Positions 14,351-37,900 of a stretch of 40,022 bases of DNA are shown piece after piece. Position numbers and translations under genes: made by a program. Position 1 is the stretch's first letter; every line of letters starts with the position of its first letter. The notes below the pieces were generated by a model. The model was given only the letters and a program-made list of their open reading frames with translations, was not told the DNA's origin and ran no database searches. The DNA lies in the NCBI GenBank assembly GCA_030649025.1, contig JAUSGO010000037.1, positions 1 through 40,022 on the forward strand, in the 5' to 3' direction. The DNA comes from a bacterium. GTDB lineage: Bacteria; Patescibacteriota; Minisyncoccia; JAUYLV01.

Positions 14351-14692
14351 CTATGGACTTATAACGGTTCCCGACACGCCAAAAAACTTCGCAACGATGT
14401 TCACGATGGCATACGAGAGGACAAGTAACACTACACCCACAATAGCCCAGGTAATGGTGTCTTTGCCCGTGGTGAGTTTTTTTTCGTCTCCGCGCGAGGT
14501 GAGTATGGAGATGGCTCCCATAATAATGAACAAAACTCCCAGAATCATTCCGAACACCAGCACCCACTGTGCTACGGCTTTAAGTGCAATATAAAAATCG
14601 CCGATGCTGGTCACCGACGGCTCGGGAATGGTTTCAGCGGCGCGCGCAACATTAAATGCGGCGCCAAGTGCTATCAAAGAAACGTATCTCAT
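14351..14692 (-). CDS. Minimal VirB2/TrbC-like membrane protein (short module, copy 1)
   Basis: This 113-residue protein has a signal peptide (1-18, ending ARA), an external loop, and two membrane helices (about 38-62 and 80-105), the layout of VirB2/TrbC pilin subunits. The loop between helices reads TSRGDEKKLTTGKDTI, a divergent form of the GG-x-KY and DAKD motifs of its neighbours. It is the last gene of the - strand run and ends next to the terminator at 14302. It may be a pilus or channel subunit of the VirB4-powered apparatus encoded upstream. The topology is clear; the pilin role is inference from family and context. Confidence 0.7.
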   Translation of the reverse strand: MRYVSLIALGAAFNVARAAETIPEPSVTSIGDFYIALKAVAQWVLVFGMILGVLFIIMGAISILTSRGDEKKLTTGKDTITWAIVGVVLLVLSYAIVNIVAKFFGVSGTVISP

Positions 14693-14731
14693 ATAAGTTG
14701 TGCAAAGCGCCTTGCTCTAAAAATTCCCATC

Positions 14732-15127
14732 CTAGCACGAGCTTCCGCTAAAAAACCCTGACCCCTCAAGCGATACATCTAAATCAGCTCCAAAAAAGCT
14801 GGCAATAATTTTTATAAGCGCAGTTGCAAGAACCAAGAATACGGTGCCGATGATCGCATAAAGAATAATGTTCTTGGCATCTTTTGCTTTTGTATCATCC
14901 CCTCCCGAAGTAATGTATTTAACCCCTCCCCAAATAACAAATAACACCCCGATAAGAAGCCCAAAAACCAATATCCAGCTTGTGGCCGCCTGTATGATTT
15001 CGTAGAAGTCGCAAATTGACTCTATATCGGTGGACGGTATAAGGCTGGGGTCTGGGGCATCAACATCGAGAGCACGAACACCAAGAGGCGCGAAGAACCC
15101 AAAAAAGAGAGTAAGAAATTTTCTCAT
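14732..15127 (-). CDS. Minimal VirB2/TrbC-like membrane protein (copy 2)
   Basis: The start is ATG 15127 (131 aa); a TTG two codons earlier is less likely. The signal peptide ends around VRA (18). Residues about 45-75 and 85-110 are membrane helices, with GGVKYITSGGDD and KAKDAKN between them. The tail after the second helix is short and ends in SGSSC; the terminal Cys is unusual. It is a tandem duplicate of the next gene: 104 bases (14883-14986) are identical to 15246-15349. The pilin-like subunit role is inferred. Confidence 0.75.
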   Translation of the reverse strand: MRKFLTLFFGFFAPLGVRALDVDAPDPSLIPSTDIESICDFYEIIQAATSWILVFGLLIGVLFVIWGGVKYITSGGDDTKAKDAKNIILYAIIGTVFLVLATALIKIIASFFGADLDVSLEGSGFFSGSSC

Positions 15128-15142
15128 AATCAACAGATTAAA

Positions 15143-15511
15143 CTAATCGACCCCGAAGAAACTGACAATAATTTTTATAAGCGCAACTGCAAGGATCAAA
15201 AATACGGTGCCGATGAGCGCATAAAGAATAATGCTCTTGGCGTCCTTTGCTTTTGTATCATCCCCTCCCGAAGTAATGTATTTAACCCCTCCCCAAATAA
15301 CAAATAACACCCCGATAAGAAGCCCAAAAACCAATATCCAGCTTGTGGCTACTCCTAGGATTATGTAGAAATCAGAAACTGAGTCTATGTCGGTGGACGG
15401 CACGGTGATACCGACGTCTCCAGGTAATTCTATCGCCAGCGCCGGTAGGGGGAGCGTTAATAGGAGATAAAAGTTAAAAAACCTGCCGAGTCTTAAAATG
15501 ATTTTCTTCAT
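15143..15511 (-). CDS. Minimal VirB2/TrbC-like membrane protein (copy 3)
   Basis: This 122-residue protein starts at ATG 15511, with a signal peptide (about 1-25, ending ALA) and two membrane helices separated by YITSGGDDTKAKDAKS. It ends right after the second helix. It is the first gene after its own promoter at 15560-15588, so the three short modules can be made independently of, and probably in larger amount than, the upstream run. It is the duplicate partner of the gene at 14732. Confidence 0.75.
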   Translation of the reverse strand: MKKIILRLGRFFNFYLLLTLPLPALAIELPGDVGITVPSTDIDSVSDFYIILGVATSWILVFGLLIGVLFVIWGGVKYITSGGDDTKAKDAKSIILYALIGTVFLILAVALIKIIVSFFGVD

Positions 15512-15559
15512 AGGTTATTCTAAAAATCTCTAAAATATAAAAAACTTTACCGTCTACTC

Positions 15560-15588
15560 ATTCTAGCACGTATTTATTGGCTAGTAAA
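15560..15588 (-). promoter_or_regulatory. Promoter of the three short VirB2-like genes
   Basis: On the - strand TTTACT (15588-15583) and TAGAAT (15565-15560) are spaced by 17 bases, in the 104-base gap between rsmA and the gene at 15511. The leader would be about 45 bases. Confidence 0.6.
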
Positions 15589-15615
15589 GGCACGCTATGT
15601 TTTTATCCACACACC

Positions 15616-16587
15616 CTATGAGACTGCTTCCGCTCCCATAACTGACAGAAGCTCAAGCCATTTCTCAAGCGCAATCTCACCCGGACGTTGCGTCGCCTTG
15701 ATGCCTGTCTTTGCAAGCCATGTACCGACATCGCTGTTTTTATAAAGGGCATTAGGCCCTGTATTTTCTGCACTCGCCTCGCCTCGCCCGCCTTGCTGCG
15801 AGGCAGGCTGTAGCTTTGGCGAAGCAGGTCGGAAATGCAAAAGAGTACTTTTGTATTTCTCTCGACTCTCTTGAAAATAACATCGGGATAGGGTGTGGAA
15901 GAGCTGTTTACGGGGAGCGGAAAACGCATTTTTAAGCAGCGCAAAAAACGCTTTATCGGCTTTTTCGTCATAGACCCTGGAAACAGCAAGTTTTAGGATT
16001 GCGGAGTCTACCTTTGGCTGAGGGAAGAACGCGCTTTTGGAGACCATAGAGATAATTTTTGGCTCTGCATAATACTGCACAGCATTACTTAAAAGCGTTG
16101 CATGCGGCGGGCGCGCCGCAATACGCTGGGCAACCTCTTTTTGTACAAGAATCGTAAGAGAGGCTGGCTGATGCGGCGTTTCTAAAAATATCCGCAGAAA
16201 ACGCGAGGTAAGATAATATGGAATATCCGCGACTATTTTATACTCCATGCCACGCAGACTGCGTGCCACAAGGTCAAACTTCAGAATGTCTCCTTGAACA
16301 ATTTCCACGTTCTTATGGTCCGCAAAAAGTTCCTGGAGAATGGGAATGAGCGCGCGATCTTTTTCAACGGCAATGACACGGCCTACATGCTGGGCGAGAA
16401 CCTGGGTAAGTGCGCCCAGGCCCGGCCCCGCTTCAAGTACGGTGTCGGTTTTTTTGAGGTCCGCGGCTTCAATAATGCGACGCAAAATTTCTTTGGAAAC
16501 CAAAAAATGCTGGCCGAGAACTTTATTCGGCTGAAGTTTCCGGGCACGGAGAAGTTTTCTTAAATAAGAGGGGTTCGTAAGGTCCAT
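15616..16587 (-). CDS. rsmA: 16S rRNA dimethyladenosine transferase RsmA (KsgA)
   Basis: RsmA makes m6(2)A at the two adjacent adenosines near the 3' end of 16S rRNA. From ATG 16587 it has 323 aa. Motifs: GQHFLVSKEILRRI (25-38), SAM-binding VLEAGPGLGALT (50-61), acidic E75, D100, and motif IV DIPYYLTS (121-128), where the usual Asn is Asp. The C-terminal helical domain carries an insertion of about 25-35 Gln/Ser/Gly-rich residues (about 255-285) encoded by repeat-like GC-rich DNA. It lies inside the secretion locus, 22 bases after a VirB2-like fusion gene, which is unusual for a housekeeping gene. The insertion is in frame and the enzyme probably works. Confidence 0.95.
   Translation of the reverse strand: MDLTNPSYLRKLLRARKLQPNKVLGQHFLVSKEILRRIIEAADLKKTDTVLEAGPGLGALTQVLAQHVGRVIAVEKDRALIPILQELFADHKNVEIVQGDILKFDLVARSLRGMEYKIVADIPYYLTSRFLRIFLETPHQPASLTILVQKEVAQRIAARPPHATLLSNAVQYYAEPKIISMVSKSAFFPQPKVDSAILKLAVSRVYDEKADKAFFALLKNAFSAPRKQLFHTLSRCYFQESREKYKSTLLHFRPASPKLQPASQQGGRGEASAENTGPNALYKNSDVGTWLAKTGIKATQRPGEIALEKWLELLSVMGAEAVS
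15775..15830. repeat. GC-rich palindromic repeat inside rsmA
   Basis: GCCTCGC (15781-15787) and GCGAGGC (15798-15804) are inverted repeats within a run of CCTCGCC, CTTGCTGCG and TTGGCGAAGCAGG units. It encodes the Gln/Gly/Ala-rich insertion of RsmA. It looks like a dispersed repeat that has entered the gene, as in tsaD, though of a different kind. Confidence 0.55.
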
Positions 16588-16609
16588 ACTTAAGGCGCGG
16601 GGGCGGCGG

Positions 16610-18376
16610 TCAGGGGCAGGGGGAGGAATCAAGGCATGACTTTACCGAAAAAGTGAGTTCGTCCGAGAAACGCTCTATGCCCGCAGCATCCTGAAGGCGC
16701 GCCTGCTCGCTCCAATCTCCGACGAGGCATCGGTCAAAGTTCCCGCTCGTGAACCAATGCCCAGTAGTTGGGTCGGTCTGCGGGGGGCTGAAATTCGTCC
16801 AATCACTCCACACGCTCCCGTTAAACGTTTGCTGTATCCATACATCGGCGCCGGCGGGACCGAGAACCTCCAGGGTCCAGGGCTCTTCAACACAAATGGG
16901 GGTTAAATCCGGATTTGGCAAAATGGTCCGCTGTTCGGCTCCTCCCGCCTTCAGGATCATGCAGGGCTTTACCTGAAAACTTATAATGTCGCCCTCCACG
17001 CCGCGGACGCGGGTTTGTATCTGCCAATCCGCGATAAGATCCGGCTTGAATTGCCCCGATAAAGACCATGAACCTGTGCTATCCGTCTTGGTTTGAAGCA
17101 CCCCCGTGTAGGAACCAAGCGGTGTACCGTCGAGCGTGGCTCCGCCGAGAGAAACCCAGTCCTGAAGCAGAAAGCCGTCTTTCCAGATCTTCACAAACAC
17201 ATCCTCGTCCTTACTCGCCGAATCAATACGAAGCTCCCATGGATCGTCGGGACAGAACCTGACAGGCAGCGCATCTGTTCCGGTGCGAAGATTAGTTATG
17301 GTAAACGGGAACTGACCGACGTTTGCGGTGCAAGTTGCTGTAACTTTCTGGAAGGTGGTAAGGTCCGTTACTTCCACCCTTTGGGTGTAGTTTCCCGGAA
17401 GCGGAAACACATATTCGGGATTGCACCCGATTGCCTCAAATGTCCCCGACCAGCGGCAATCATAACTCCCCATTCCATTTGCGTGAATGCCGAAATGCAC
17501 GCCGTCCTCCATATTTGCCGAAGAAGGGTTTGGCGTCGCAAAGCATGACACTTCAAGATTTTCTTGCGACGGCGCGCTCGCGGAAGTTCCAAGAGAATTC
17601 TTTGAACAACACACGTGTGTAGCGGAAACAAAATCCGCCCCATCAATGCACTCAACGGGACGTTCAGGATCTTGGCACTTGCTGTCAGGTGCCACCTCCC
17701 ATTCACTTCTGAATCCGCCCGTGACCTCCGAGCAGGGATAATTTGCGGGGCACGTACCGCCCGATGCGGTATTGCACGGAATATCCGAAACACAGGAAAG
17801 ATATTCAAAGTCACCCTCCGCGGTTTTTGCCTGAACGCAGGCATCTCCCTCCACGCGCCCGATACAGGGAGCGCATTGCGAGTCATCCCCGCAGGTGCCT
17901 TCTTCGGTCGGAGCGCAAAATGTTCCCGCATCTCCTTGAATTTTACAGCTTAGATACCCCCCTCCGGGAAGAAAGTCAATGGGCCTTACAACTCCTTCAA
18001 AAACGCCCGGTGCGCCGGAACCGATAAATTTAAAAAGATCCGGATTGATAAAGCGGAGTGTGGCGCCCGCAAACACCACAACCAAAAATCCAAGAAGCGC
18101 ATGCACCAAGCGATCTTTGGCGTCCTCGGCCTTGGTGGGGTTCCCGACGGCTGTTAAGTATTTCACGCCGCCGTAGAAAAATGCAGCAAAACCCGCAATA
18201 CCGACGGTCGCCAACCCATAGAGATATATGACGTGGATAAGTTGACTGGGAGAGTCCGGCGTAACGCTGCCTACCGGAGGCAAAATAAAGGAAGTTTCTG
18301 CATACACTGCAACCGGAAGCATGCCTAGAAAAAACATGCTTAATGCTTCAGCAAACTTTCTAAAAATTTTTCCCAT
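16610..18376 (-). CDS. VirB2-like module fused to large Cys-rich and Ig-like exterior part
   Basis: This 588-residue protein has a signal peptide (1-26, ending VYA), then two membrane helices (about 47-70 and 88-108) with GGVKYLTAVGNP and DAKDRL between, ending in INPDLFKF: the shared module. Residues about 140-275 form a Cys-rich region with more than 15 Cys (CGDDSQCAPCIG, CCSKNS), probably disulfide-bonded outside. Residues about 280-588 look like three beta-sandwich units, the last two with the repeated pattern PWELRI/PWTLEV, then GSWSLSGQF/GHWFTSGNF and FQVKPC/FSVKSC. No enzyme motif is seen. A surface-displayed binding or spacer subunit of the VirB4 apparatus is the best inference. Confidence 0.75.
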   Translation of the reverse strand: MGKIFRKFAEALSMFFLGMLPVAVYAETSFILPPVGSVTPDSPSQLIHVIYLYGLATVGIAGFAAFFYGGVKYLTAVGNPTKAEDAKDRLVHALLGFLVVVFAGATLRFINPDLFKFIGSGAPGVFEGVVRPIDFLPGGGYLSCKIQGDAGTFCAPTEEGTCGDDSQCAPCIGRVEGDACVQAKTAEGDFEYLSCVSDIPCNTASGGTCPANYPCSEVTGGFRSEWEVAPDSKCQDPERPVECIDGADFVSATHVCCSKNSLGTSASAPSQENLEVSCFATPNPSSANMEDGVHFGIHANGMGSYDCRWSGTFEAIGCNPEYVFPLPGNYTQRVEVTDLTTFQKVTATCTANVGQFPFTITNLRTGTDALPVRFCPDDPWELRIDSASKDEDVFVKIWKDGFLLQDWVSLGGATLDGTPLGSYTGVLQTKTDSTGSWSLSGQFKPDLIADWQIQTRVRGVEGDIISFQVKPCMILKAGGAEQRTILPNPDLTPICVEEPWTLEVLGPAGADVWIQQTFNGSVWSDWTNFSPPQTDPTTGHWFTSGNFDRCLVGDWSEQARLQDAAGIERFSDELTFSVKSCLDSSPCP

Positions 18377-18400
18377 ACGCAGAAAACGAATTTAATCGCT

Positions 18401-20362
18401 TTAATCCGGAACGCATGAGCCGACGGCTGCATGACATCCTGTGTTGCAGGTAATGTATCTTACCGCCCAGGAACTATTTACCGCACCCCATATGTTGCAG
18501 CCGTTGGCATTGCACTCGTTCTTATTATACGCAAAAACGTATGGATGCCTCCCCAGAGGCCCGGAGCTGCCCTGGGTTGTCCCGCACTGCGAACCGGATT
18601 CTTTTGAGCACGCACATGTACAATTCCACCACTGTCCCACTGCGGTGTACCCGCTTCCGTCCGAGTATCCGACCTGCCCGTTGTCATCTGTCGTCCAGCT
18701 GTTCAGCGAAATATTCTGCACTTGGTCATAGGTCACCCCGGCGGCTTGAGCCACATCAACCATGCCCGTATTGCAGTTCCCGGTAGCCCTACAAAGCAGT
18801 GAGCCGGGAGCCTGCGTACAGCTTGCGGTCCCGCATCCGCTGCAAAGCGTCGTGGTTGTGCAGCCTACGGCAATAGTTTTGGAAAGAAGGGTCTGGCTGC
18901 ATACTACAGGAGTAGGAGTTGGCGTAGGCGTGGGGGTTGTGGTTGGTGCAGGCGTGAGGGTTGGCGCTGGGGTTGGAAGCACTGTCGAGGAAGGCGGAGG
19001 ACAGTCGGAGGTGTAGAACGCAAAGTACGAATCTATCGTAGCCGCATATTTTCTGGTTTCTGTGTAGCTGGTGTTTGCCTGACACGCGCCGAGGCTTGAA
19101 GAATCAAACGGGCACATCCAGCGGGGTATCGTGGTGGAACAATTTCCGCATATGGTTGAGGTTGATTGCGTGCAGCCGGCCGGGAGCGCATCAGAACCGC
19201 TGTTTCGGCAACTGCAGCTTGGGGCATTCACGCCCACTCCGCCGTAATACGCGGCGGCAGTATATTGGATTTCGCCCGGCGGATAGTTATTTTCACTTTT
19301 GAACCGCTCGGCGCTTCGCATATCAATCTCAAGAATACAGGCACCGACGGCTATCGCGATATCTGGATTGGAAACCATAATGGGACAGGCCTGGGTAATA
19401 TCGCTTGCGCCAGAACCAAAAAGATACTGGCACGCCTTGAACTCGGAGGCTGGATCAAAAAGTATCTGCGGATTTACCCCCATAAGACCGCATCCGCCAT
19501 CTGGGGTAGTACAGTCAAGATTCCCGCCTGGACATTCTTTGCGCATGATTGCCACAATGAGAGCCCGCGGGATACCAAATTTAGAAGCCGCTCTCTCTAT
19601 CGCTTCGTCACACGTATAGGTGAAATTGGGCGACGTAACCGTTCCCGCACATGGCAAGACACAACTTGAGGGAAGCGCATCTCCCTTTGCCGTATTTAAA
19701 CATGCTTCCGAAAAGGGTCCGGGGGCTCCGGCGTTTTGTCCGACCTCAAGTGCGTCGGAAATAATTTTTTCTTCCCCCGACGTCGCCTCAAAAAAGTATG
19801 AAGTCTCTGTAGACGCAAGAGGGATAATCCATGTTGAAGATGCTTCGTTCCCTAGGACCGTCCCGCTAAGTGCCATGCCGGTTTCCACGATACGGAAGGC
19901 TACGGGAATACCGTCATCGCAATCCTCCGTCACCACCACCAAGCCGACTTCCGCGCCGGGGACTGCAGTGCCGGCCCATTGCGCCGAAATAAACCTGCAC
20001 GAATCTCCCGGCGCGCCGGCAGGTCCTTGCGACGGCGAACCGAGGCCCCCCGACCCCGGATTTCTTAACTTCAAAAAATCTGGATTGAGCGTGTAGAGAA
20101 AAATAACGGAAAAGAGAAAAACCGCAAGGCCCAGGAAAGCATGCAACATGCGGTCCTTAGCGTCGCTTACAACAGCAGGATTCCCTGCGGAAAAAAAATA
20201 CCGGATCGCGCCTATCAAGAATGCGATAAAAACGGCTATGCCTACAATACTAAACGCAAAGTAAAAAATATACGCCACAAGCGATGCGGGACTTGTTGGC
20301 TCCGGTGCTCCCGTAACATCGGGAAGGGATGTGATGACTTGGGCAATTGCGGACTTGAACAT
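18401..20362 (-). CDS. VirB2-like module fused to lytic transglycosylase domain
   Basis: This is a 653-residue protein. Residues 27-52 and 72-92 are the two helices, joined by IRYFFSAGNP and DAKDRM and followed by LNPDFLKLRNPG. A beta domain follows (about 120-210). Residues about 250-378 match a transglycosylase SLT domain: AIERAASKFGIPRALIVAIM, catalytic Glu candidate E276 in MRKEC, GGCGLMGVNP and YTAAAYYGG; several Cys in and around it suggest disulfides. Then come a Thr/Pro stalk (about 455-485) and a C-terminal Cys-rich part with a DVAQAAGVTYDQV segment. It should cleave peptidoglycan outside the membrane, opening the wall for the apparatus or for a neighbour cell. It has no clear cleavable signal peptide. 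Confidence 0.85.
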   Translation of the reverse strand: MFKSAIAQVITSLPDVTGAPEPTSPASLVAYIFYFAFSIVGIAVFIAFLIGAIRYFFSAGNPAVVSDAKDRMLHAFLGLAVFLFSVIFLYTLNPDFLKLRNPGSGGLGSPSQGPAGAPGDSCRFISAQWAGTAVPGAEVGLVVVTEDCDDGIPVAFRIVETGMALSGTVLGNEASSTWIIPLASTETSYFFEATSGEEKIISDALEVGQNAGAPGPFSEACLNTAKGDALPSSCVLPCAGTVTSPNFTYTCDEAIERAASKFGIPRALIVAIMRKECPGGNLDCTTPDGGCGLMGVNPQILFDPASEFKACQYLFGSGASDITQACPIMVSNPDIAIAVGACILEIDMRSAERFKSENNYPPGEIQYTAAAYYGGVGVNAPSCSCRNSGSDALPAGCTQSTSTICGNCSTTIPRWMCPFDSSSLGACQANTSYTETRKYAATIDSYFAFYTSDCPPPSSTVLPTPAPTLTPAPTTTPTPTPTPTPVVCSQTLLSKTIAVGCTTTTLCSGCGTASCTQAPGSLLCRATGNCNTGMVDVAQAAGVTYDQVQNISLNSWTTDDNGQVGYSDGSGYTAVGQWWNCTCACSKESGSQCGTTQGSSGPLGRHPYVFAYNKNECNANGCNIWGAVNSSWAVRYITCNTGCHAAVGSCVPD

Positions 20363-20372
20363 TTACAAAATT

Positions 20373-21689
20373 TTAACTTCCGGTGCAAGCAGCAAGCGCA
20401 GTGCGCTGATTGCGGTCTATGGTGTACAATGAGTTTTCGGGAACCGTTGCGATGCCGTCAAACGCATTGCCGCCGTTACCTACAATCCATTGATTATCCA
20501 TTTTCAGTTCAAAATGAAGGTGTGGGCCGAATACATTAGGTCCACAGTCCCAGGTAGTAAGCACACCGACTTGTTGACCGGCCTGAACCGTATCGCCCAC
20601 AGCTACGCTTGGATCAATATGTGCGAGCACCGCACAGAAGGGGTCGTCTACACACTCCAATCCCTTGGAGGTGATAGTAATATAACGACCAAACTCGCCC
20701 TGGGAACCCAAGCTTCTATTTCTCATCACCTTTCCTGAAAATGGCGCAAATACCGGTACGCCCCGTAAAGCATTTTCATGTGCTTCCTCACAAGTTTTTC
20801 CCACACGCAAGTCTACCGCACAGTCGGGGTCTTGGCACGATACCCAGCCATGCCCGCTTCCGGGCGCTTTGTGCAAAGAACTGTTTACGGTGATGGCATA
20901 ATCTCCATAATTTATTGGTGGTACAGCTCCTCCAGTTGGGCAATTTCCGCCGGTATTGACGCAAAGTCCGTCCTTTACCAAGAGCGTGCCCGAGGCCTTC
21001 TGCGTCAGGGCATCTCCTTCTCCGGCTCTTGCTATAAAGGTATACGTTCCGGTTTTCAACGGTTGCCACTGCTCCTGAACCACATTTGAAGAATCAAATA
21101 AAACAACGGGAACGGGCTGATTTATGGTAGCGCCGCTCGCGTCCACAATGTTAAGCGAAACGCCCCAGCCCTCGCAGTTTCTTCCTTGCACAACCATGGA
21201 TACCCTATCGAATGCTTTTGTTACTTCATTATAGCACGCCTGGTTGTTGTCCCACGCGGCGCTCAAAAGCTGGCAGCTTCCCTCCGGAACATCGTCCGGA
21301 GGAATGACCACTATTGTTGGTATTTCCAGAATAGGTATGCCGGGATTCCTTAAGCGTACAAAGTCAGGATTTATAGTATAGAGAAGGGAGATTGCCGCAA
21401 GCACAAAAATAAGCCCGAATATCGCCGATTTGATACGGTCTTTCGCGTCGCTCTCGGCGCTGGGATTTCCCGCAGCGGTAAGGTACCGGAAGCCCCCTGC
21501 AAGAAGTGCTACAAGCGCCAAGGCTCCCACGAACACAAAGGAGAAGACAACGATGTAATTTACAAAAGCCGCCGGGCTTTTGCCCGGCTCCGCCCCGCCC
21601 ACTGCAGGAAGATTGAGGCTTAAGGAAGCGGCAAAAACGGTTCCGCTTTCCCAGAGCAATATGAGTAGTACGGCAAGAAGCGCATACAT
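20373..21689 (-). CDS. VirB2-like module fused to M23 endopeptidase domain
   Basis: The start is ATG 21689 (438 aa); a TTG six codons earlier is less likely. The signal peptide ends near VFA (20). Two helices (about 45-68 and 86-105) carry FRYLTAAGNP and DAKDRI and end INPDFVRLRNPG, almost as in the gene downstream. A beta domain follows (about 135-240). The C-terminal M23/LytM domain (about 270-395) has VFAPFSGKV, LAHIDPSVAVGDTVQAGQQVG and GPHLHFEL (H390, H392). The first zinc pair is less regular: H280 and D293 are 13 apart instead of 4, with two Cys in between. It would cut peptide cross-links, complementary to the glycan-cutting neighbour at 18401. Confidence 0.85.
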   Translation of the reverse strand: MYALLAVLLILLWESGTVFAASLSLNLPAVGGAEPGKSPAAFVNYIVVFSFVFVGALALVALLAGGFRYLTAAGNPSAESDAKDRIKSAIFGLIFVLAAISLLYTINPDFVRLRNPGIPILEIPTIVVIPPDDVPEGSCQLLSAAWDNNQACYNEVTKAFDRVSMVVQGRNCEGWGVSLNIVDASGATINQPVPVVLFDSSNVVQEQWQPLKTGTYTFIARAGEGDALTQKASGTLLVKDGLCVNTGGNCPTGGAVPPINYGDYAITVNSSLHKAPGSGHGWVSCQDPDCAVDLRVGKTCEEAHENALRGVPVFAPFSGKVMRNRSLGSQGEFGRYITITSKGLECVDDPFCAVLAHIDPSVAVGDTVQAGQQVGVLTTWDCGPNVFGPHLHFELKMDNQWIVGNGGNAFDGIATVPENSLYTIDRNQRTALAACTGS

Positions 21690-21735
21690 AATAAACTCAA
21701 AATGCAAATCTCAAAATGAAAAGTTTTTGAATATC

Positions 21736-21767
21736 GTGGAAGTTTTTCTTGCAAGAAAAACTTCCAC
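21736..21767. repeat. Perfect 32-bp palindrome
   Basis: GTGGAAGTTTTTCTTG (21736-21751) is followed without a gap by its exact reverse complement (21752-21767). It lies in the 126-base gap between the beta-propeller gene and the M23 fusion gene. It resembles the inverted duplication in tsaD in form but not in sequence. A cruciform, protein site or mRNA processing hairpin are all possible. Confidence 0.8.
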
Positions 21768-21806
21768 TCCTTAATTTTGATCTTTGATTTTTTATTTTTA
21801 AATTAT

Positions 21807-21830
21807 GCATTACGATTACAATCGTAATGC
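21807..21830 (-). terminator. Hairpin at the end of the beta-propeller gene
   Basis: GCATTACGATT (21807-21817) and AATCGTAATGC (21820-21830) are exact inverted repeats with a 2-base loop, spanning the stop codon at 21816. On the - strand AT-rich sequence follows without a clean T run, so it may be a weak terminator or mRNA-stabilising hairpin. Confidence 0.45.
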
Positions 21831-23018
21831 GTATACGTATCCATCGCGGCGATTCACGAAAAATATCCGAGATTCGTCGGGAGCAAGTATGGGGTTTATC
21901 GCATCAAGAACCGGAAATGTCTCCTGGGAGCGAATGATGGTGCGGCTTGCGAGCGTCTCCACGTTTACCTGTAAAACGTTATCCGCGCTTATGAATATTC
22001 CCTTAAAATAATCTTCGGGAAACTGCAGGTCTTCCGGAACCTCTAGGGGCGAGGCGCAAATAACGGTGGCGTTGTCCCGCCTCCAGACGCATTTTTGTGC
22101 GAGTGTTACGATGCCAAAAAGTTCTCTGGGCTGCGTCTGGAAAAGCGTTCCCGCAATGGCGTGCATCATATTTCCGTCGGAAGTTGTGCGGGAAGCAAAA
22201 AGGCGCGAGCCGTCTCCCGACCACGTTACGTCAAGGCCCTCATAGTCCTGCGGGAGAATTTTGGTAAGTATGCCGGTTCGTGCGTTAAGTGCATATAAAT
22301 GCGTCACGGAAGCGTATGAGGGTTTTGTTTGTACAACAATGGCGTCCTCCTTGGGCCAGGAAAGAAGAAAGTCGTCGAAAATCGGGTGGAACAAAGTTCT
22401 GAAGTTCGAACCATCGGGATTTGCGACCGCAATGATATCGTCGCCGTTTGTGGTGTTGAGATAGTGATAGACGATCTTATCGCCCCCGGGAGAAAACGCC
22501 ACTTCGCGTATGTACTTGTTAAGTTCCGTTGCCTTTTTTTCCGCAACATTGTAAAAATATTTTCGCGGTGCATCGGTTTGGTCCATGACGGTGAAAACCG
22601 CTTTATCACCCGAGCGCGACCACACAATTTCCACCATGTTCTGATGCGGAACATCCGATATGCGCTGTTGATGCAAACCTTCGAAATCCGCCTGCCACAA
22701 CATGCCGTTCGCGCGGGTGAAATATTGGACGGTATTTCCTGAAGGCGCAATCGCGGGAACAAATGCCGGTTCGTTCGAAACACGGTACAATCTTTGCCGC
22801 AAGCGTTCTTCCGGAGAGATGGGTTTTGGCAAAGACGGCTGCGGACTTGGTCGGGATCCACCGAGCAACCGGTTTAAAGCTTCGGGTAAAAATCCGAAGC
22901 GGGTTGTGGGCGCTTCCGGAGTAGACTCTTTTCCCCGATAGAAAAAGAAGTAATATACGGCTCCGACGATGGCGGCAACTGCAAGCACGATGATTATGAT
23001 TTTGCGTCTTCGGGACAT
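21816..23018 (-). CDS. Membrane-anchored beta-propeller-like protein
   Basis: This 400-residue protein has a basic start and a single membrane segment (6-27), then a Pro-rich spacer (about 30-70), then about 310 residues of repeating four-strand units typical of TolB/WD40-like propellers: IVWSRSGDKAVFTV, VAFSPGGDKIVYHY, VTWSGDGSRLFASR and ILAPDESRIFFVN each begin a blade with Ser/Asp-Gly or Asp-Glu turns. There is no enzyme motif. It lies among the VirB2-like fusion genes with an 18-base gap to the gene at 23037, so a scaffold or binding protein of the apparatus on the outer face is likely. Such propellers are common in Patescibacteria surface loci. Confidence 0.75.
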   Translation of the reverse strand: MSRRRKIIIIVLAVAAIVGAVYYFFFYRGKESTPEAPTTRFGFLPEALNRLLGGSRPSPQPSLPKPISPEERLRQRLYRVSNEPAFVPAIAPSGNTVQYFTRANGMLWQADFEGLHQQRISDVPHQNMVEIVWSRSGDKAVFTVMDQTDAPRKYFYNVAEKKATELNKYIREVAFSPGGDKIVYHYLNTTNGDDIIAVANPDGSNFRTLFHPIFDDFLLSWPKEDAIVVQTKPSYASVTHLYALNARTGILTKILPQDYEGLDVTWSGDGSRLFASRTTSDGNMMHAIAGTLFQTQPRELFGIVTLAQKCVWRRDNATVICASPLEVPEDLQFPEDYFKGIFISADNVLQVNVETLASRTIIRSQETFPVLDAINPILAPDESRIFFVNRRDGYVYALRL

Positions 23019-23036
23019 AGAAAATAAGAAATTAAA

Positions 23037-24464
23037 TTAGATACAGGTCTCTACTACGCTGACACTTTTTGATGTCGATCCATAGGCACCGTACTGGTCG
23101 AAAACCGTCAACGTAACGGTAGTATCATTGGTAAGAAGTAGTACCTCAACCGTTTTTGCCGGCTGTATCCCGGTATAGAGCGGCACACTATTTTTGTCGG
23201 TCCAGTTAAAGCCTTCGATTTTGGCGGCAATGGGGCTAGTAGATGCGCTGCCATCCAGCTTAACGCGCGCGGCTCCGCTTGACCCGACTAAATAGGAACC
23301 GTTGGGGCATAACATCGTACCATCGCCCGTAACAACCGATATCGTGAACGAAGCTACCGGACCGCAGTCTCCGCAAACACGCCGGGTGTCGGACATGTTC
23401 GCTATAGCATTCCCCGAAGCGTCTTTCCCTTGAGCGACTATTCTGTGTATGCCGGGACCCGTAATACCTTCCTGCCATATCACGCCGCAACTCCCCGCAA
23501 CCGGCGCGCATACGCCGGAATAAACTTCCGCAGAACTTTCATTATAAACCTTTATGCCGACCGTCACCACTTGCGATGGTGCCCGCACGTCTATGCGTAG
23601 AGGCTGGTCCGGCGTGACCGGCGTCACCGTGCCTCCGCCGGTCGGCGGCAGGGGGGAAATAATTTCGAACGTAAAGTATTGTGCCGTAGGATCCGAGCAG
23701 GAATCTCCCAGCGTGCAATCGGGAAAATCGGCAGGACAGGAATTCATGCAATCGGCAACAAGGAACGGCCCGCACACGGCTGGATCGTCGGGAGATACGG
23801 CAGTGCCTCCTTCGTTATCCTTCTTCGTGCACGAATGATTCATAGGATCGCAATCTTCCCCCACGATGCAGGCACAGCAACGTTCCGATGCGCTGCACAA
23901 CCCATTACAGCCGCCGAGGTTATCAATCCAGCCGTTGCCTATCGCTCCGCAATCCCTGCCTCCCAAGCCTTCGGGTGATGATTCGGTAGGAAAACATAGT
24001 CCTTCGCTTTTTGCATCTTCTTCCGGTGGAAAGGTGTTCGGAACGGTTTGTGTAAGGGGTGCGGTGTTTATTGCGGAGAAGTTCACCAGGTCCGGATTTA
24101 TGGTATTGAGAATGAGGTAACTTCCCAGCACCACCAAAAAACCAAGAAGCGCATGCGAGATCTGGTCTTTTGCATCCTGCTCCCCTCCCGGGCTCCCTGA
24201 TGCAAGCACATACCGCACGCCGCTATAAAGAAGCATGATGGCCGCGGCAAGCGCCACAATCCCCATGAGCCACAGATATATATAACGAACAAGCTCGGCA
24301 AGGTTTCCCGGAGCAGATTCGCCATCAATCCCCGGCAAGGGCACTATCAGCTTGTAGCCACCGATATCTGTTATGGGCTGGGCATTCACGGTCGGACCGA
24401 ACGCTGCCAGCCCAAGAGCTACTACCGCGATACCAAGTACTATTTTCGACCATGAGCGTATCAT
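23037..24464 (-). CDS. VirB2-like module fused to Cys-rich and PKD/Ig-like exterior part
   Basis: This 475-residue protein has a signal peptide (1-28, ending VNA) and two helices (about 62-90 and 103-122) joined by VRYVLASGSPG and DAKDQI, ending in INPDLVNF. A Cys-rich region (about 155-265) contains GLCSASERCCACIVGEDC and CMNSCPADFPDC; such dense Cys clusters recall knotted adhesion or binding modules. Residues about 270-475 form two Ig/PKD-like sandwiches, including IRIVAQGKDASGNA-type strands and a final VTLTVFDQYGAYGS. There is no catalytic motif. It is the first fusion protein in the transcribed order after the ATPase genes. A surface-exposed subunit with a binding role is inferred. Confidence 0.75.
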   Translation of the reverse strand: MIRSWSKIVLGIAVVALGLAAFGPTVNAQPITDIGGYKLIVPLPGIDGESAPGNLAELVRYIYLWLMGIVALAAAIMLLYSGVRYVLASGSPGGEQDAKDQISHALLGFLVVLGSYLILNTINPDLVNFSAINTAPLTQTVPNTFPPEEDAKSEGLCFPTESSPEGLGGRDCGAIGNGWIDNLGGCNGLCSASERCCACIVGEDCDPMNHSCTKKDNEGGTAVSPDDPAVCGPFLVADCMNSCPADFPDCTLGDSCSDPTAQYFTFEIISPLPPTGGGTVTPVTPDQPLRIDVRAPSQVVTVGIKVYNESSAEVYSGVCAPVAGSCGVIWQEGITGPGIHRIVAQGKDASGNAIANMSDTRRVCGDCGPVASFTISVVTGDGTMLCPNGSYLVGSSGAARVKLDGSASTSPIAAKIEGFNWTDKNSVPLYTGIQPAKTVEVLLLTNDTTVTLTVFDQYGAYGSTSKSVSVVETCI

Positions 24465-24561: not shown

Positions 24562-25815
24562 CTATCGGATGGTTATCGGCACCGAAAATTCTCCGCTTTC
24601 CGTTCTTTTTGGATTTTTATTCTCCACCGTGAGTTGCAATGATTTTTCTATTTGAGTTCCTGCCTTGAGTTTTGCCTGACCGATATTGAGCGTGAATACG
24701 TCGGGATTCCGCGCGGCTTCGGGAAGCGTGTTTTCATCGAACAGCCAGGTAAAGCGCAGGCCGCGCAGGGTCTGCACGTTAAAATAGTACGGAACGGCAA
24801 CGGCAGAAAATTTTCCTGCGGGAGCCGCCTGAAATGATCCGCGCCCAGCGTCATCACGGTCGTATTTCCCCGTCCGTATTTGATGAAAAACCACCTGCGG
24901 CCGGGCGCGCTCAATAACGATCTCTTTGAAAATATCGATGTTCCCCGCAAGATCGGTGATATGCACCGAAACCGTGTGGCTGGAGAAGGGAAATCCGATG
25001 AGCGCCTGATTTTTCCCGATACCGAGAGCATCAAGCGGCGTATCGTCATCTATGGTCCAGGTGTAGTCGAGAAGGCCGAATGCGGGAGGCACAAAAGGCT
25101 GGGCCGACACCACGATAGAGCCTTGCAGGGTGGGAAGAGCTTTGCCGCGATACCCGGGCGGAGTATAGCTATCGGTATACCAGACGATATCCGCATCAAC
25201 AACCGGTATCAAAAGTGCGGCCTGTATTATTCTGCCTCCGGCAAGACGCGCCTGCATCCGCACCGAGTGTATGGTGCCCAAAACCCCGGATGTGAATGAG
25301 AGCGTGTTTTGCCCGACGCCGGAAAAGGCCGGCATGGCTTTATTGTCCAGGAACCATTGGTAGTTTGTGGAAGCGCCTTTCTCCAAGTCCGGGAACTGAA
25401 ATCCTCCGGCGACATTAAAGTCCGCGCTCACCGTTACCCGGGTTTTCGGGAATGGGCTTTGCGGATCCGCATTAAGCAAAAGAGCTTGATCGGTTGTGCT
25501 TTGCGTAACGGGTGCCTCCCGGCCCGAAGCAGTTTCATCCCCGGGAAAGGCTTCCTGAATAGCTCTAAGTTCTTCCTCGAGAACGCCGGGCGGAAGAATG
25601 CTGTTTATCGAATCCTTTATGTATTTTCTATAGGTATCAATTTGACCCTTCTGGTCTTTGGGGAGTTGAGCGGCAAAACCCTTAAGATACTGTTCGATGA
25701 GCGCGTCAATATCGGGCATAGAAATGTCCTGGGCGCGGCCGGAAGAAAGCGGCAGAAACAACAATGCCGCAAGAAGCGCTACAATTATGTTTTTTGAAAT
25801 AGAATGCATACTCAT
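24562..25815 (-). CDS. Secreted beta-sandwich protein of the secretion locus
   Basis: This 417-residue protein has a clear signal peptide (about 1-28, ending GRA). Residues 30-100 are helical (MPDIDALIEQYLKGFAAQL). The rest is beta-rich, probably three Ig-like units: around 125-210 with FQFPDLEKGASTNYQWFLDN, around 215-300 with LDYTWTIDDDTP, and around 310-415 with LRFTWLFDENTLPEA. The recurring Y/F-x-W-x-(I/L/F)-D-(D/N/E) motif is typical of PKD-like folds. It lacks the VirB2-like module of its downstream neighbours and has few Cys. A periplasm-like or surface structural component is likely; I cannot name a family. Confidence 0.7.
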   Translation of the reverse strand: MSMHSISKNIIVALLAALLFLPLSSGRAQDISMPDIDALIEQYLKGFAAQLPKDQKGQIDTYRKYIKDSINSILPPGVLEEELRAIQEAFPGDETASGREAPVTQSTTDQALLLNADPQSPFPKTRVTVSADFNVAGGFQFPDLEKGASTNYQWFLDNKAMPAFSGVGQNTLSFTSGVLGTIHSVRMQARLAGGRIIQAALLIPVVDADIVWYTDSYTPPGYRGKALPTLQGSIVVSAQPFVPPAFGLLDYTWTIDDDTPLDALGIGKNQALIGFPFSSHTVSVHITDLAGNIDIFKEIVIERARPQVVFHQIRTGKYDRDDAGRGSFQAAPAGKFSAVAVPYYFNVQTLRGLRFTWLFDENTLPEAARNPDVFTLNIGQAKLKAGTQIEKSLQLTVENKNPKRTESGEFSVPITIR

Positions 25816-26598: not shown

Positions 26599-28383
26599 CT
26601 ACTTTTCGGCGGCGGCAAATTCATCTTTTGCCTTCTGCAGCGCAAGCAGCTGGCTGGGATCTGACGTGATAATTTGGTCTTCGGTGTAGGAGGCGATGGT
26701 TCGCATTGCGATATGCTTTAAGCCCGCAAGTAAAAGTCCTTCTCCGATGTCGTTTGAGAGCAGGAGGTATTTTTCTTCTTCGGTAAGATTGAATGTTTTT
26801 TGCACAACATCAACGGCCGCGGGAGACTGCTTGAACAAAAACTGTATGGAGGCATTTGTTACGATAGGTTTTCCGAAGCTTGAGTTCATGAAGTCCGGCA
26901 CATCCTGCGTAATAGTGGTAAGGCCCACAAAATATTTCCGTCCGCGCTTGGCGATGGCGAACAGGAAGGAGCCGCCTTCGGGGTATTTCATAAGCCACCA
27001 TGCCTCGTCCACCACAATAATGCGTTTGCGCAGGTCCGAACGTATGATGTTCCAAATATGCTGAAGAATGATGTACATGGCGATGGGACGCAACTCTTCT
27101 TCCATGTCCCGTACGGAAAACACCACAAGCTTGTTCTTAATGTCCACATTGGTCGCTTGATTCACGAATCCCGCGAACGACCCTTCGGTATAACGGCTAA
27201 GGCGCTTGGCGATGCCCGATCCCCCATCCATGCTGGAGAGCACCGTCTGCAGGTCCTGCATTAAGGGAGGAGTGATGTTCGCGAAATTAGTTTCTGCCGT
27301 AATATCGCGCGACGCATAGGTCTCTATAACCGCTTTATCAAGCACGCCCTCCTCTTCCGAAGATATGTTTCCGAGCATAATCTTCAAAAGGCCAACGAGG
27401 TTTATAATGTTTCCCCTGAACAGCTCCTGCGGTCCTTCGTCGGGACGGGGAAGCGGGAGGTCGAAGGGATTGATGTGATAGGGTGAGGCAATGGAAATGT
27501 TGAAAATGGTGCCGCCCACTGCCTCGGCAAGATGTTTGTATTCATTTTCCGGGTCTATGACGATAACGTCATTGCCTATCATCAGCGAACGTAATATCTC
27601 CAGCTTTATTGCGTACGATTTTCCGCTTCCCGACTTTCCAAAGATCGTCATGTTGGCGTTTTCCAGATCGAACCGGTCAAAGAGCACAAGAGAATTATTG
27701 TGGCGGTTAAGGCCGTAGAGAATCCCGCGGTCCGAGGTGAAGGTGGACGAAACGAACGGAAATGACGTGGAGAGCGGCGCGGTATTCAGGTTGGTGTTCA
27801 CGAAAAGATTGTCGGTTCCCAACGGCAGAGCCGATTGAAACGCGATGTCCTGCTGAAAAGCCGCGGATTTTGCGTAAATAAGACGCGCCTCCAGAGTACT
27901 GATAATAAGACTCTCAACATCACTAAGTTCCTTTGGCGTATCACCGTAAATCGTCACATAAAGTCCGAATCTGAAAAGTTTTTCGGTTCCCTGAATAAGC
28001 CTGTCCCGCAAGTCTTCAATGTCGCGTCGCGCCGTATCAAGCACGGGATCGCGCACCAGCCCCTTCTCGCGTTCAATGTTTATCTGCGATTCCACTTCAG
28101 TAAGTTTCTTCCGAAGTTTTTTGAGCACCTCTGCAACATCGGTGGGATGGATAAACATGGTGATATCCATGACCCGGTCCGCGTTGATGATCGGCGAGAA
28201 CCACCCCGTGTTGAGATACCGGGGATACAAGAATACGAAAAGCGTCCGGCATAAGCGCGTGCCGATCTGCAGATAGTTCGGCGTTATTTTAATGGCCGAT
28301 GGCGCGATCAAATCCTGCACGGACGGCTGGTCAACCGTTTTTTGGATAAGTTCGCCTACATTTGATGTAATGTCCTTCTCCAT
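26599..28383 (-). CDS. virB4: VirB4-like type IV secretion ATPase
   Basis: This 594-residue ATPase powers assembly or transport in type IV secretion systems at the inner membrane. Walker A is GKSGSGKS (249-256), followed by VIVIDPENEY (273-282). Walker B is RIIVVDEAWWLM (454-465), and the C-terminal part has GRKYFVGLTTITQDV with the motif III Gln. The N-terminal 240 residues (RFGLYVTIYG, then TSDRGILYGLNRHN) belong to the middle part of VirB4. The first part of a full-length VirB4 (about 800 aa) is missing and seems to be supplied by the separate gene at 28494. No VirD4 or VirB11 ATPase is seen nearby. The family is certain; whether the cargo is DNA, protein or pilin cannot be told. Confidence 0.93.
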   Translation of the reverse strand: MEKDITSNVGELIQKTVDQPSVQDLIAPSAIKITPNYLQIGTRLCRTLFVFLYPRYLNTGWFSPIINADRVMDITMFIHPTDVAEVLKKLRKKLTEVESQINIEREKGLVRDPVLDTARRDIEDLRDRLIQGTEKLFRFGLYVTIYGDTPKELSDVESLIISTLEARLIYAKSAAFQQDIAFQSALPLGTDNLFVNTNLNTAPLSTSFPFVSSTFTSDRGILYGLNRHNNSLVLFDRFDLENANMTIFGKSGSGKSYAIKLEILRSLMIGNDVIVIDPENEYKHLAEAVGGTIFNISIASPYHINPFDLPLPRPDEGPQELFRGNIINLVGLLKIMLGNISSEEEGVLDKAVIETYASRDITAETNFANITPPLMQDLQTVLSSMDGGSGIAKRLSRYTEGSFAGFVNQATNVDIKNKLVVFSVRDMEEELRPIAMYIILQHIWNIIRSDLRKRIIVVDEAWWLMKYPEGGSFLFAIAKRGRKYFVGLTTITQDVPDFMNSSFGKPIVTNASIQFLFKQSPAAVDVVQKTFNLTEEEKYLLLSNDIGEGLLLAGLKHIAMRTIASYTEDQIITSDPSQLLALQKAKDEFAAAEK

Positions 28384-28493: not shown

Positions 28494-29186
28494 TTAAACA
28501 GCGGATCCGGGTTCCTTGAAACTCACTCCCTTCTCGCCCTCCGAGGGGTTATAGAGCAGATACAGAAGTTCCGTAATATCTTCCGTGGTTAAAAGTACCG
28601 CCCGCACTTCAACCCCCCTTAGACCCATGATAATGTGATCCACGCGCTGCAGAAGCTGCGTGCGATACTCTTCAAATTTTTCCTGTTCTTCCTCCGCTTT
28701 CTTTTTCTTCTCCGGTTTTATGCCGGAGACCGCTTCCATGAACTTTTCAAACATCCCTTCGGATTTCGTTTCTATCGGAGCAAATGGGATCGTCACATAG
28801 AAGTTCTTGGTCATCACGTTCGTAAGGCGCACAAGGCTCTGAATGAAATCAATGTACTCGGCGATCTGGATACGTAAAAGTTCGGTGGATTGTTCGGCGA
28901 GCTTTCCTTTGAGGAATTCAACGTACGGCTCAATGTTCAGCTTGCGGGAATTTATGGAGATCTCAACGGCAAAATCCAAAGAATTAAGAAATGCCTGATA
29001 TCGGTAGATGATGGCGTCCTTTTCTTCCTGTGATTTCAGGTCAAAGTTTATGGAAGAGCACATCACGATCATGCGCATGCCTTTGTTTTTGAGCGTGATT
29101 ACGCCGTCTTTCAAATTCTCAACGGTGACAAACTGTTGGGTTGAACTGGCTTCTTCGGTAACTAATTTTCCTCGTTTTGTTGGCAT
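28494..29186 (-). CDS. Separate VirB4/TraC N-terminal-like protein
   Basis: This 230-residue soluble protein lies directly upstream of virB4. Residues about 20-110 (FVTVENLKDGVITLKNKGMRMIV, then YRYQAFLNSLDFAVEISINSRKLNIEPYV) match the first domain of VirB4/TraC ATPases. Residues about 115-215 continue as the next helix-strand part (FYVTIPFAP, then a Lys/Glu-rich stretch, then LLTTEDITELLYLLYNP). It has no Walker motif. Thus the VirB4 function is probably split in two polypeptides, with this one giving the membrane- or partner-contacting lobe. Split forms with a TraC-like N-terminal protein are common in Patescibacteria as far as I recall. The assignment is by pattern, not by alignment. Confidence 0.75.
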   Translation of the reverse strand: MPTKRGKLVTEEASSTQQFVTVENLKDGVITLKNKGMRMIVMCSSINFDLKSQEEKDAIIYRYQAFLNSLDFAVEISINSRKLNIEPYVEFLKGKLAEQSTELLRIQIAEYIDFIQSLVRLTNVMTKNFYVTIPFAPIETKSEGMFEKFMEAVSGIKPEKKKKAEEEQEKFEEYRTQLLQRVDHIIMGLRGVEVRAVLLTTEDITELLYLLYNPSEGEKGVSFKEPGSAV

Positions 29187-29218: not shown

Positions 29219-29647
29219 TTATTTCAGTTCCTCCGCTTCTCCTTTCATGTCAAGCTGCCAGGCAAGCGCCCGTATCCTCCCCTGCTGGGGCCTCGGCTTT
29301 TGCGGTATGGCGGCTCGAAGCGCGTCTTCAAATATGACTCTTTCCGGTACCTCGCGGAGCGGCCCCTCTGCCTTTTTTTGCCAAATGAATATTTGCGGCA
29401 TAAGGCTATAACGCATGAATGACCCGATGAACGCATGCAGTGGCATATTGTATATTTTGAAAAACGCCAGCGCCGAGAAAATTCCCATGATAAATAGGGA
29501 TGCAAGCACCCAAACGCCGAACTTCAGGGTGAAATACAAAATGAAAACAATGCCCCCGCCCATGAGCAGCCACAAAAATTGCTTCATGGTAAGCGGCCCG
29601 ATGATCTTGTCTTCCACTTCAATGAATTGCGGAACGTTATAATGCAT
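29219..29647 (-). CDS. PrgI/VirB3-like membrane protein
   Basis: This 142-residue protein has the marks of the PrgI family of Gram-positive and Patescibacteria type IV systems: the N-terminal YNVPQFIEVEDKIIGPLTMKQF (split here as YNVPQFIEVEDK and IIGPLTMKQF), two adjacent membrane helices (about 24-42 and 45-65), then a short cytoplasmic domain with a basic end (IPQKPRPQQGRIRAL). It corresponds to VirB3, which docks VirB4 to the inner membrane, and as usual it is encoded next to the VirB4 genes. It is 32 bases upstream of the VirB4 N-terminal-like gene. The assignment is strong. Confidence 0.88.
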   Translation of the reverse strand: MHYNVPQFIEVEDKIIGPLTMKQFLWLLMGGGIVFILYFTLKFGVWVLASLFIMGIFSALAFFKIYNMPLHAFIGSFMRYSLMPQIFIWQKKAEGPLREVPERVIFEDALRAAIPQKPRPQQGRIRALAWQLDMKGEAEELK

Positions 29648-37817: not shown

Positions 37818-37900
37818 TGGAGATTTTTTATCTCATCGAAAAAAATCCTGAAAAATATTCTATTCTTCGTCCATGGACGCGAAGTGAGAAACATGATAGT

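Follow-up and report, generated by a model that had tools for sequence, protein, structure and literature searches.

How a type IV secretion system (T4SS) passes the cell wall of a bacterium in which VirB1, the hydrolase that opens peptidoglycan for such machines, is not recognised is the question raised by a run of genes in the 40,022-nucleotide stretch analysed here (the window; contig JAUSGO010000037.1 of assembly GCA_030649025.1, lineage Patescibacteriota; Minisyncoccia; JAUYLV01), whose source organism is a tiny, probably host-dependent bacterium. The T4SSs of Patescibacteria are akin to Gram-positive systems, are accompanied by VirB2-like arrays of 2-11 genes and in most cases have no relaxase (PMC12102498), and in Southlakia epibionticum, the only Patescibacterium tested, the T4SS and its pilin array are essential for epibiotic growth (PMC10633639). 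Most VirB2-bearing Patescibacteria have no recognised VirB1, and a 2025 survey concluded that pilus biogenesis needs none (PMC12102498). Seven genes between positions 14351 and 24464 of the window encode a pilin module, either bare or joined to a large extracellular part (the exterior), and they lie in one run with genes of a T4SS. The answer that we favour is that the job of VirB1 is probably done by hydrolases built on these pilin modules. Such proteins may explain how the T4SS passes the wall where the usual VirB1 is lacking, a gap that would then be filled at least in the window's class, and their defined active-site residues make them testable candidates for how these bacteria breach their own wall or that of a host.

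The initial annotation, made from the sequence of the window, held that seven genes share one module, and this was borne out: all seven lie where it had placed them, on the minus strand, and match the Pfam model T4SS_pilin (PF18895), five above its gathering cut-off of 26.6 bits and two (16610 and 18401; genes are named by their first coordinate) 0.3-0.4 bits below it. The short and the long proteins were compared using a profile of 116 bare pilins, all from outside the window, with 2100 block-shuffled sequences that keep local hydropathy as decoys. By this profile the long proteins of the window reach 41-48 bits (16610 and 18401 being at 41-42), no decoy exceeds 25 bits and no module-free protein of the window exceeds 4 bits; the reverse profile, from 94 long proteins, gives the short window proteins 45-54 bits, and the expected kinship of short and long modules is thereby upheld. 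The three short genes consist of the module alone, as had been described, with 14732 reaching the reported 131 amino acids (aa) only when counted from its ATG; the long proteins carry exteriors of 320-550 aa and are module-bearing proteins, not simple small pilins. That each of the seven begins with an export segment and the module is correct as regards the module, but not as regards the export segment of 18401, which has no clear signal peptide. The module is predicted to be a hairpin behind a signal peptide, with both ends outside and a K/R-containing loop in the cytoplasm, and AlphaFold2 models one short and one long module as hairpins, with a predicted local distance difference test score (pLDDT) of 80 and 75, respectively. 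The exterior follows an N-terminal module in 73 proteins, precedes a C-terminal module in 13 and flanks a middle one in 9, and exteriors at either end are as expected for a hairpin with both termini outside. By PF18895 search the module is present 14 times in the window genome, seven of them outside the window, and in 372 of 380 sampled Patescibacteria genomes. A module-bearing frame of 14,266 aa in genome G084 (L041-L043) was discarded as an artefact of masked N stretches.

Two of the long window proteins carry wall-enzyme domains. The M23 peptidase reported in 20373 is confirmed by Pfam, with the HxH motif (396-398) and H363 present. The transglycosylase reported in 18401 is a weak match by itself and a firm one in the ortholog from the sister genus (SLT E=2.6e-10), represented by G384, the sole other genome of the same family; a profile of these two sequences has lytic transglycosylases as its best PDB matches (E=0.018). 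The genes 16610 and 23037 had been read as cysteine-rich (Cys-rich) and immunoglobulin-like (Ig-like). Both are Cys-rich, but the Ig-like part is found for 23037 only, through its ortholog (Big_7), and not for 16610. The sister genus also holds orthologs of 16610, 23037, 24562 and 21816, with the order 24562, 23037, 21816 kept. Its ortholog of 20373 is 48% identical over module and linker and has a lysozyme-like C-terminal part in place of M23. As such, the anchor is retained with a different enzyme, which is direct evidence for enzyme exchange on a conserved anchor. A search of related loci with the M23 fusion 20373 itself returned module-level matches only, in two Yanofskybacteria contigs, which point to Paceibacteria as the probable class of the window genome.

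Fusions of the module to wall-enzyme domains recur in more distant relatives, for which the counts that follow are samples and not a census, with gene context taken from draft genomes. Exteriors near virB4 include several types of wall enzyme, Pfam finding SLT_3 in one (E=1e-9) and, weakly, SLT_2 in another. A further type has the signature GGTE..H..G..SH..G.K.D...E..HWDV; it gave no match in a Pfam search, the M15 family included, and would be one class of hydrolase, behind a pilin module, that escapes Pfam. By its motif, this exterior would belong to the M15/Hedgehog zinc peptidases (M15-like below): the H, D and H zinc-ligand positions and a Glu are conserved (A4/A11), and all 17 PDB matches of a 30-sequence profile are Hedgehog, over the first zinc His/Asp, although the best of them is marginal (E=0.33). 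Hedgehog is known to share ancestry with bacterial peptidoglycan peptidases (PMC8052667, PMC6027127). By tblastn, homologs about 40% identical occur in Streptomyces and Deinococcus plasmids, with the putative ligands and Glu conserved, and these are fused to PG_binding_1 or adjoin amidase or GH25 lysozyme genes; the same search against phages gave none. The M15-like profile matches in 40 of 238 genomes of the class, and of the 35 M15-like frames in the loci fetched around these matches, 33 also contain the pilin module (the exteriors of G172, G236, G193 and G328 were called by eye and left out of these profile-based counts). Eight of the 33 fusions follow virB4 closely and share its strand, seven of these in the order VirB6-PrgI-TrsD-like-VirB4-fusion, complete in the fetched stretch; 19 lead or lie close to an array of bare pilins; and 6 are near neither virB4 nor an array, several being at contig ends. 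A lysozyme-like exterior related to SLT_3 matches in 17 of 238 genomes, and 12 of its 16 frames in fetched loci are fused to the module, six of the 12 preceding bare-pilin arrays. It is a guess that Pfam curators met PF18895 and SLT_3 (PF18896) on one protein, as the two accessions are consecutive.

These arrangements raise the question of whether the long proteins are themselves parts of a pilus, as minor or tip pilins that polymerise with the bare ones and display enzymes and binding domains along the outer surface or at the end of the pilus, where they would act on the host wall at contact. The module is the same as that of the bare pilins, a hydrolase pilin leads or adjoins a bare-pilin array in the 19 M15-type and six lysozyme-type loci, and exteriors at either module end are what outward termini would allow. 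However, exteriors of 300-3500 aa are bulky enough to limit helical packing, and many long proteins stand beside virB4 with no bare pilins in the fetched stretch, so that we regard this explanation as tentative and on the whole unlikely. A bolder form, in which VirB1 and pilin would be one family and pilin subunits with exchangeable hydrolases at their outer end, built into the T4SS pilus at its tip or its base, would cut the host wall as a drilling pilus, is a speculation that we consider doubtful.

The tie between long proteins and the machine was examined by listing PF18895 matches in 19 genomes of the window's class and 19 of other classes, and by locating VirB4, M23 and SLT in those and in the window genome. 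A long frame was defined as a frame of at least 260 aa that carries the module, and near as within 10 kb of virB4. VirB4 is present in 39 of 39 surveyed genomes, as a single copy except for two in G047 and G187 (raw match counts are higher, since some genes are matched in two pieces). In the window's class, 14 of 35 long frames are near virB4 against an expectation of 3% (about 1), an enrichment of about 14-fold (p=3e-13), and the corresponding figure for bare pilins is 3 of 81. A long frame near virB4 was found in 12 of the 19 genomes of this class, or 13 of 19 if the threshold is lowered to at least 200 aa. Among the 19 genomes of other classes, nearness to virB4 shows no significant difference between long and bare frames. 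M23 proteins close to virB4 in those classes were considered as further pilin-anchored cases and rejected, as they have other transmembrane (TM) layouts.

The same survey bears on the view that Patescibacteria use the module as a general-purpose surface anchor, of pilin descent but functionally unconnected to the T4SS, the gene linkage merely reflecting its origin. Half of the 14 module genes of the window genome lie outside the window, other classes use the module to anchor proteins of 3077-3577 aa away from bare pilins, and 16 of the 35 long frames of the window's class are away from T4SS sites. Such an anchor does not account for the enrichment at virB4, nor for the repeated orders of virB4 followed by a hydrolase-pilin and of a hydrolase-pilin followed by a pilin array, and we find it improbable. 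Some long module proteins, in the reading favoured here, are general surface anchors, since not all long modules are encoded at T4SS loci. The linkage expected from the initial annotation is therefore partly seen: in the window's class there is a strong enrichment of long proteins close to VirB4, but about half of them lie elsewhere.

Returning to the reading that we favour, it is reasonable to postulate that bare modules form pilus or channel subunits, as has been proposed for Patescibacteria (PMC12102498), and that an N-terminal module serves as anchor for peptidoglycan hydrolases and other extracellular domains. The hydrolases (SLT and M23 here, M15/Hedgehog-type and lysozyme-like in relatives) would be held at the machine via the module, and would open the peptidoglycan so that the T4SS could be assembled across the wall. 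This presumes that the enzymes are catalytically active, become part of the machine by way of their pilin module and cut a wall, either the cell's own or that of the host. Two of the features by which a VirB1-like hydrolase would be identified are present in the window, namely a predicted peptidoglycan hydrolase domain (M23, and SLT by way of the ortholog) encoded with a T4SS, the hydrolase genes lying on the same strand as virB4 and within about 9.5 kb of it. The machine itself includes VirB4 of the CD1110/FATA kind, PrgI and a VirB6-like protein, as in MPF_FATA-like T4SSs of Patescibacteria; of the upstream genes named by the initial annotation, VirB4 and the PrgI/VirB3-like protein are found by profile and the VirB6-like protein by its seven predicted TM segments and position only. 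A pilin-like module reused as anchor for different exteriors at one machine, which was its central proposal, is retained as to the anchor, the several enzymes and the adjacency to the T4SS, though not as an undescribed system.

Among known proteins the closest parallel is with the Gram-positive VirB1-like hydrolases PrgK, TraG of pIP501 and CD419, which are likewise membrane-anchored, encoded with a T4SS of the VirB4/PrgI type and combine SLT with a peptidase. They differ in that the SLT and M23 domains of the window are on separate proteins anchored by pilin modules, and in that other lineages have M15/Hedgehog-type or lysozyme-like domains. The two-domain Gram-positive proteins would have a split counterpart here, with SLT and M23 each carried by an anchor of its own. 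Some VirB1 homologs carry M23, and in Southlakia essential peptidase and lysozyme homologs are encoded downstream of virB4 (PMC12102498).

The long proteins might instead be anchored effectors or substrates that the T4SS moves into the host cell. They are encoded with the machine, the T4SS of most relatives has no relaxase (PMC12102498), and a coupling-protein homolog is present elsewhere in the window genome (PF10412 matches are on other contigs, best on C28, and not near virB4). We nonetheless judge this very improbable: a membrane module made of two helices and preceded by an export segment would be a client of Sec and not a T4SS substrate, three unrelated kinds of hydrolase point to wall work, and no T4SS signal was identified.

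The description of the module as VirB2/TrbC-like holds indirectly. No window module (0 of 7) matches PF04956 at E<=0.1, but two relatives reach the cut-off of that model, a protein of contig C31 (L004) with 32 bits and one of L013 with 35.5 bits. The best PDB match of a 59-sequence module profile is VirB2, at an E value (0.017) that is marginal by itself, and no match resulted when the module profile was aligned by hhalign to TrwL (R388), used as a single sequence. The module resembles VirB2/TrbC (PF04956) in its signal peptide, its predicted two-helix hairpin and a polar cytoplasmic loop, and we know of no canonical VirB2 with an exterior enzyme. Among NCBIfam models, the three bare pilins match best the Mbov_0395-family of pilin-like conjugal transfer proteins from integrative and conjugative elements of mycoplasmas (NF045849, E down to 1e-7), although they score below the family cut-off and the model comprises 80 positions with no exterior domains. 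The resemblance of the bare pilins at 14351-15511 to NF045849 conflicts with the view that T4SSs of the Gram-positive type have no pilins.

Several observations weigh against hydrolases on pilin modules as the VirB1 of these systems. The similarity of the module to VirB2 appears marginal by sequence, and a Foldseek search with the short and long hairpins found no PDB match below E=0.001, the fold search being uninformative. The first zinc His of the M23 domain in 20373 is uncertain, with an unusual spacing from H286 to D299, and many of the exteriors, being Cys-rich or Ig-like, show no sign of an enzyme. Of the 35 long frames of the window's class, 16 have neither virB4 nor an array of bare pilins in their vicinity, which indicates that use of the module is not restricted to the machine, and the use of other anchors by virB4-proximal M23 proteins in other classes indicates that pilin anchoring is not a general rule. 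Last, VirB1 homologs tied to VirB4 in Paceibacteria have already been noted, with the fusion unmentioned (PMC12102498).

The suggestion that the locus represents an undescribed system does not stand. Patescibacteria T4SSs with VirB2-like pilin arrays have been published using the same Pfam models (PMC12102498, PMC10633639), the module has a Pfam name, and PF18895 itself was a search model in the 2025 survey (PMC12102498). The published arrays have the same module, VirB4, PrgI and VirB6-like neighbours and divergent paralogs, but were reported as pilins only, whereas in the window and in relatives a hydrolase or other exterior is joined to the first member or to the one next to virB4. Fusions of enzymes to a pilin module are not mentioned in the main text of that survey (its supplementary tables might list long VirB2 proteins), and no mention was found in the portions consulted of a 2025 T4SS review (PMC12857230) or in other titles and abstracts. 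What appears to be undescribed is limited to the fusions and the VirB1 role that they likely have.

Table 1. Genes of the T4SS run in the window, with the evidence for each assignment.
Coordinates	Strand	Feature	Evidence
14351..14692	-	Bare T4SS_pilin-type protein	113 aa, two TM helices; PF18895 E=2.7e-8; NF045849 E=8.6e-6, below cut-off
14732..15133	-	Bare T4SS_pilin-type protein	131-133 aa; PF18895 E=9.6e-12; NF045849 E=1.1e-7, below cut-off
15143..15511	-	Bare T4SS_pilin-type protein	122 aa, signal peptide and two TM helices; PF18895 E=1.3e-7; AlphaFold2 helical hairpin, pLDDT 80
15616..16632	-	KsgA/RsmA rRNA dimethylase	PF00398 E=5.5e-51; not a machine part
16610..18376	-	Pilin module (aa 46-111) and Cys-rich exterior	588 aa; PF18895 26.2 bits against cut-off of 26.6; bare-pilin profile 41.8 bits; sister-genus ortholog 51% identical
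18401..20362	-	Pilin module (aa 28-93), SLT transglycosylase domain (putative catalytic Glu276) and C-terminal extension	653 aa; PF18895 26.3 bits; SLT E=0.037
20373..21707	-	Pilin module (aa 48-113), linker domain and M23 peptidase (aa 315-406)	444 aa; PF01551 E=1.1e-10; PF18895 E=1.3e-7
21816..23018	-	Single-TM protein, weak PD40/beta-propeller match	PD40 E=0.005, below cut-off; homologs in L127, L128, L141
23037..24464	-	Pilin module (aa 58-123) and Cys-rich exterior, C-terminal Ig-like by orthology	475 aa; PF18895 E=4.4e-8; ortholog Big_7 E=3.5e-6
24562..25815	-	Exported protein, family not assigned	No Pfam match; 53% identical ortholog in L141
25933..26511	-	Membrane protein, three predicted TM segments	Topology prediction
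26599..28383	-	VirB4 ATPase	PF19044 E=1.3e-24; NF045971 CD1110-family VirB4 above cut-off; genome's single copy
28494..29186	-	Conserved protein encoded between prgI and virB4; TrsD-like on the basis of position only	39 homologous frames in fetched loci
29219..29647	-	PrgI/VirB3-like	PF12666 E=4e-10
30371..33073	-	VirB6-like polytopic protein	900 aa, 7 predicted TM segments; no Pfam match; homologs upstream of prgI in related loci

From 35602 down to 14351 the genes are separated by gaps of at most 117 bases, with one short overlap, so that they read as one transcriptional run in which ksgA is embedded (Table 1). This housekeeping rRNA methylase gene (ksgA/rsmA) sits between the fusion genes and the bare pilins, and its frame has 23 bases in common with the 3' end of 16610. 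Homologs of the product of 21816-23018 adjoin virB4 (L128) and a long module protein (L127) in other genomes, and this single-TM and possibly beta-propeller protein is a candidate for an unnamed T4SS component. Near the run, on the plus strand, 37814-39862 encodes PG_binding_1 with a very weak SLT-like tail.

Further module proteins are encoded outside the window. In the window genome (G000), contig C31 encodes a 710-aa protein with pilin module, Big_7 and a weak metallopeptidase match (L004:6054-8183; M64-like, E=0.003). Giant frames of 3577, 3351 and 3077 aa that start with the pilin module and contain no masked bases are found in other classes (L010:3890-14620, L011:4032-14084 and L012:5634-14864), and ahead of each lies the gene of another module protein, of 640-750 aa, in what is a recurring two-gene surface-protein locus; the ends of the L011 and L012 giants resemble VWA domains by eye. 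In another class the module is N-terminal on a polytopic VirB6-like protein of about 430 aa (L017:8632-9924, L045:14051-15340 and L046:11517-12806), a possible fusion of pilin and VirB6, and at L016:7931-10137 two neighbouring proteins each have three tandem pilin modules.

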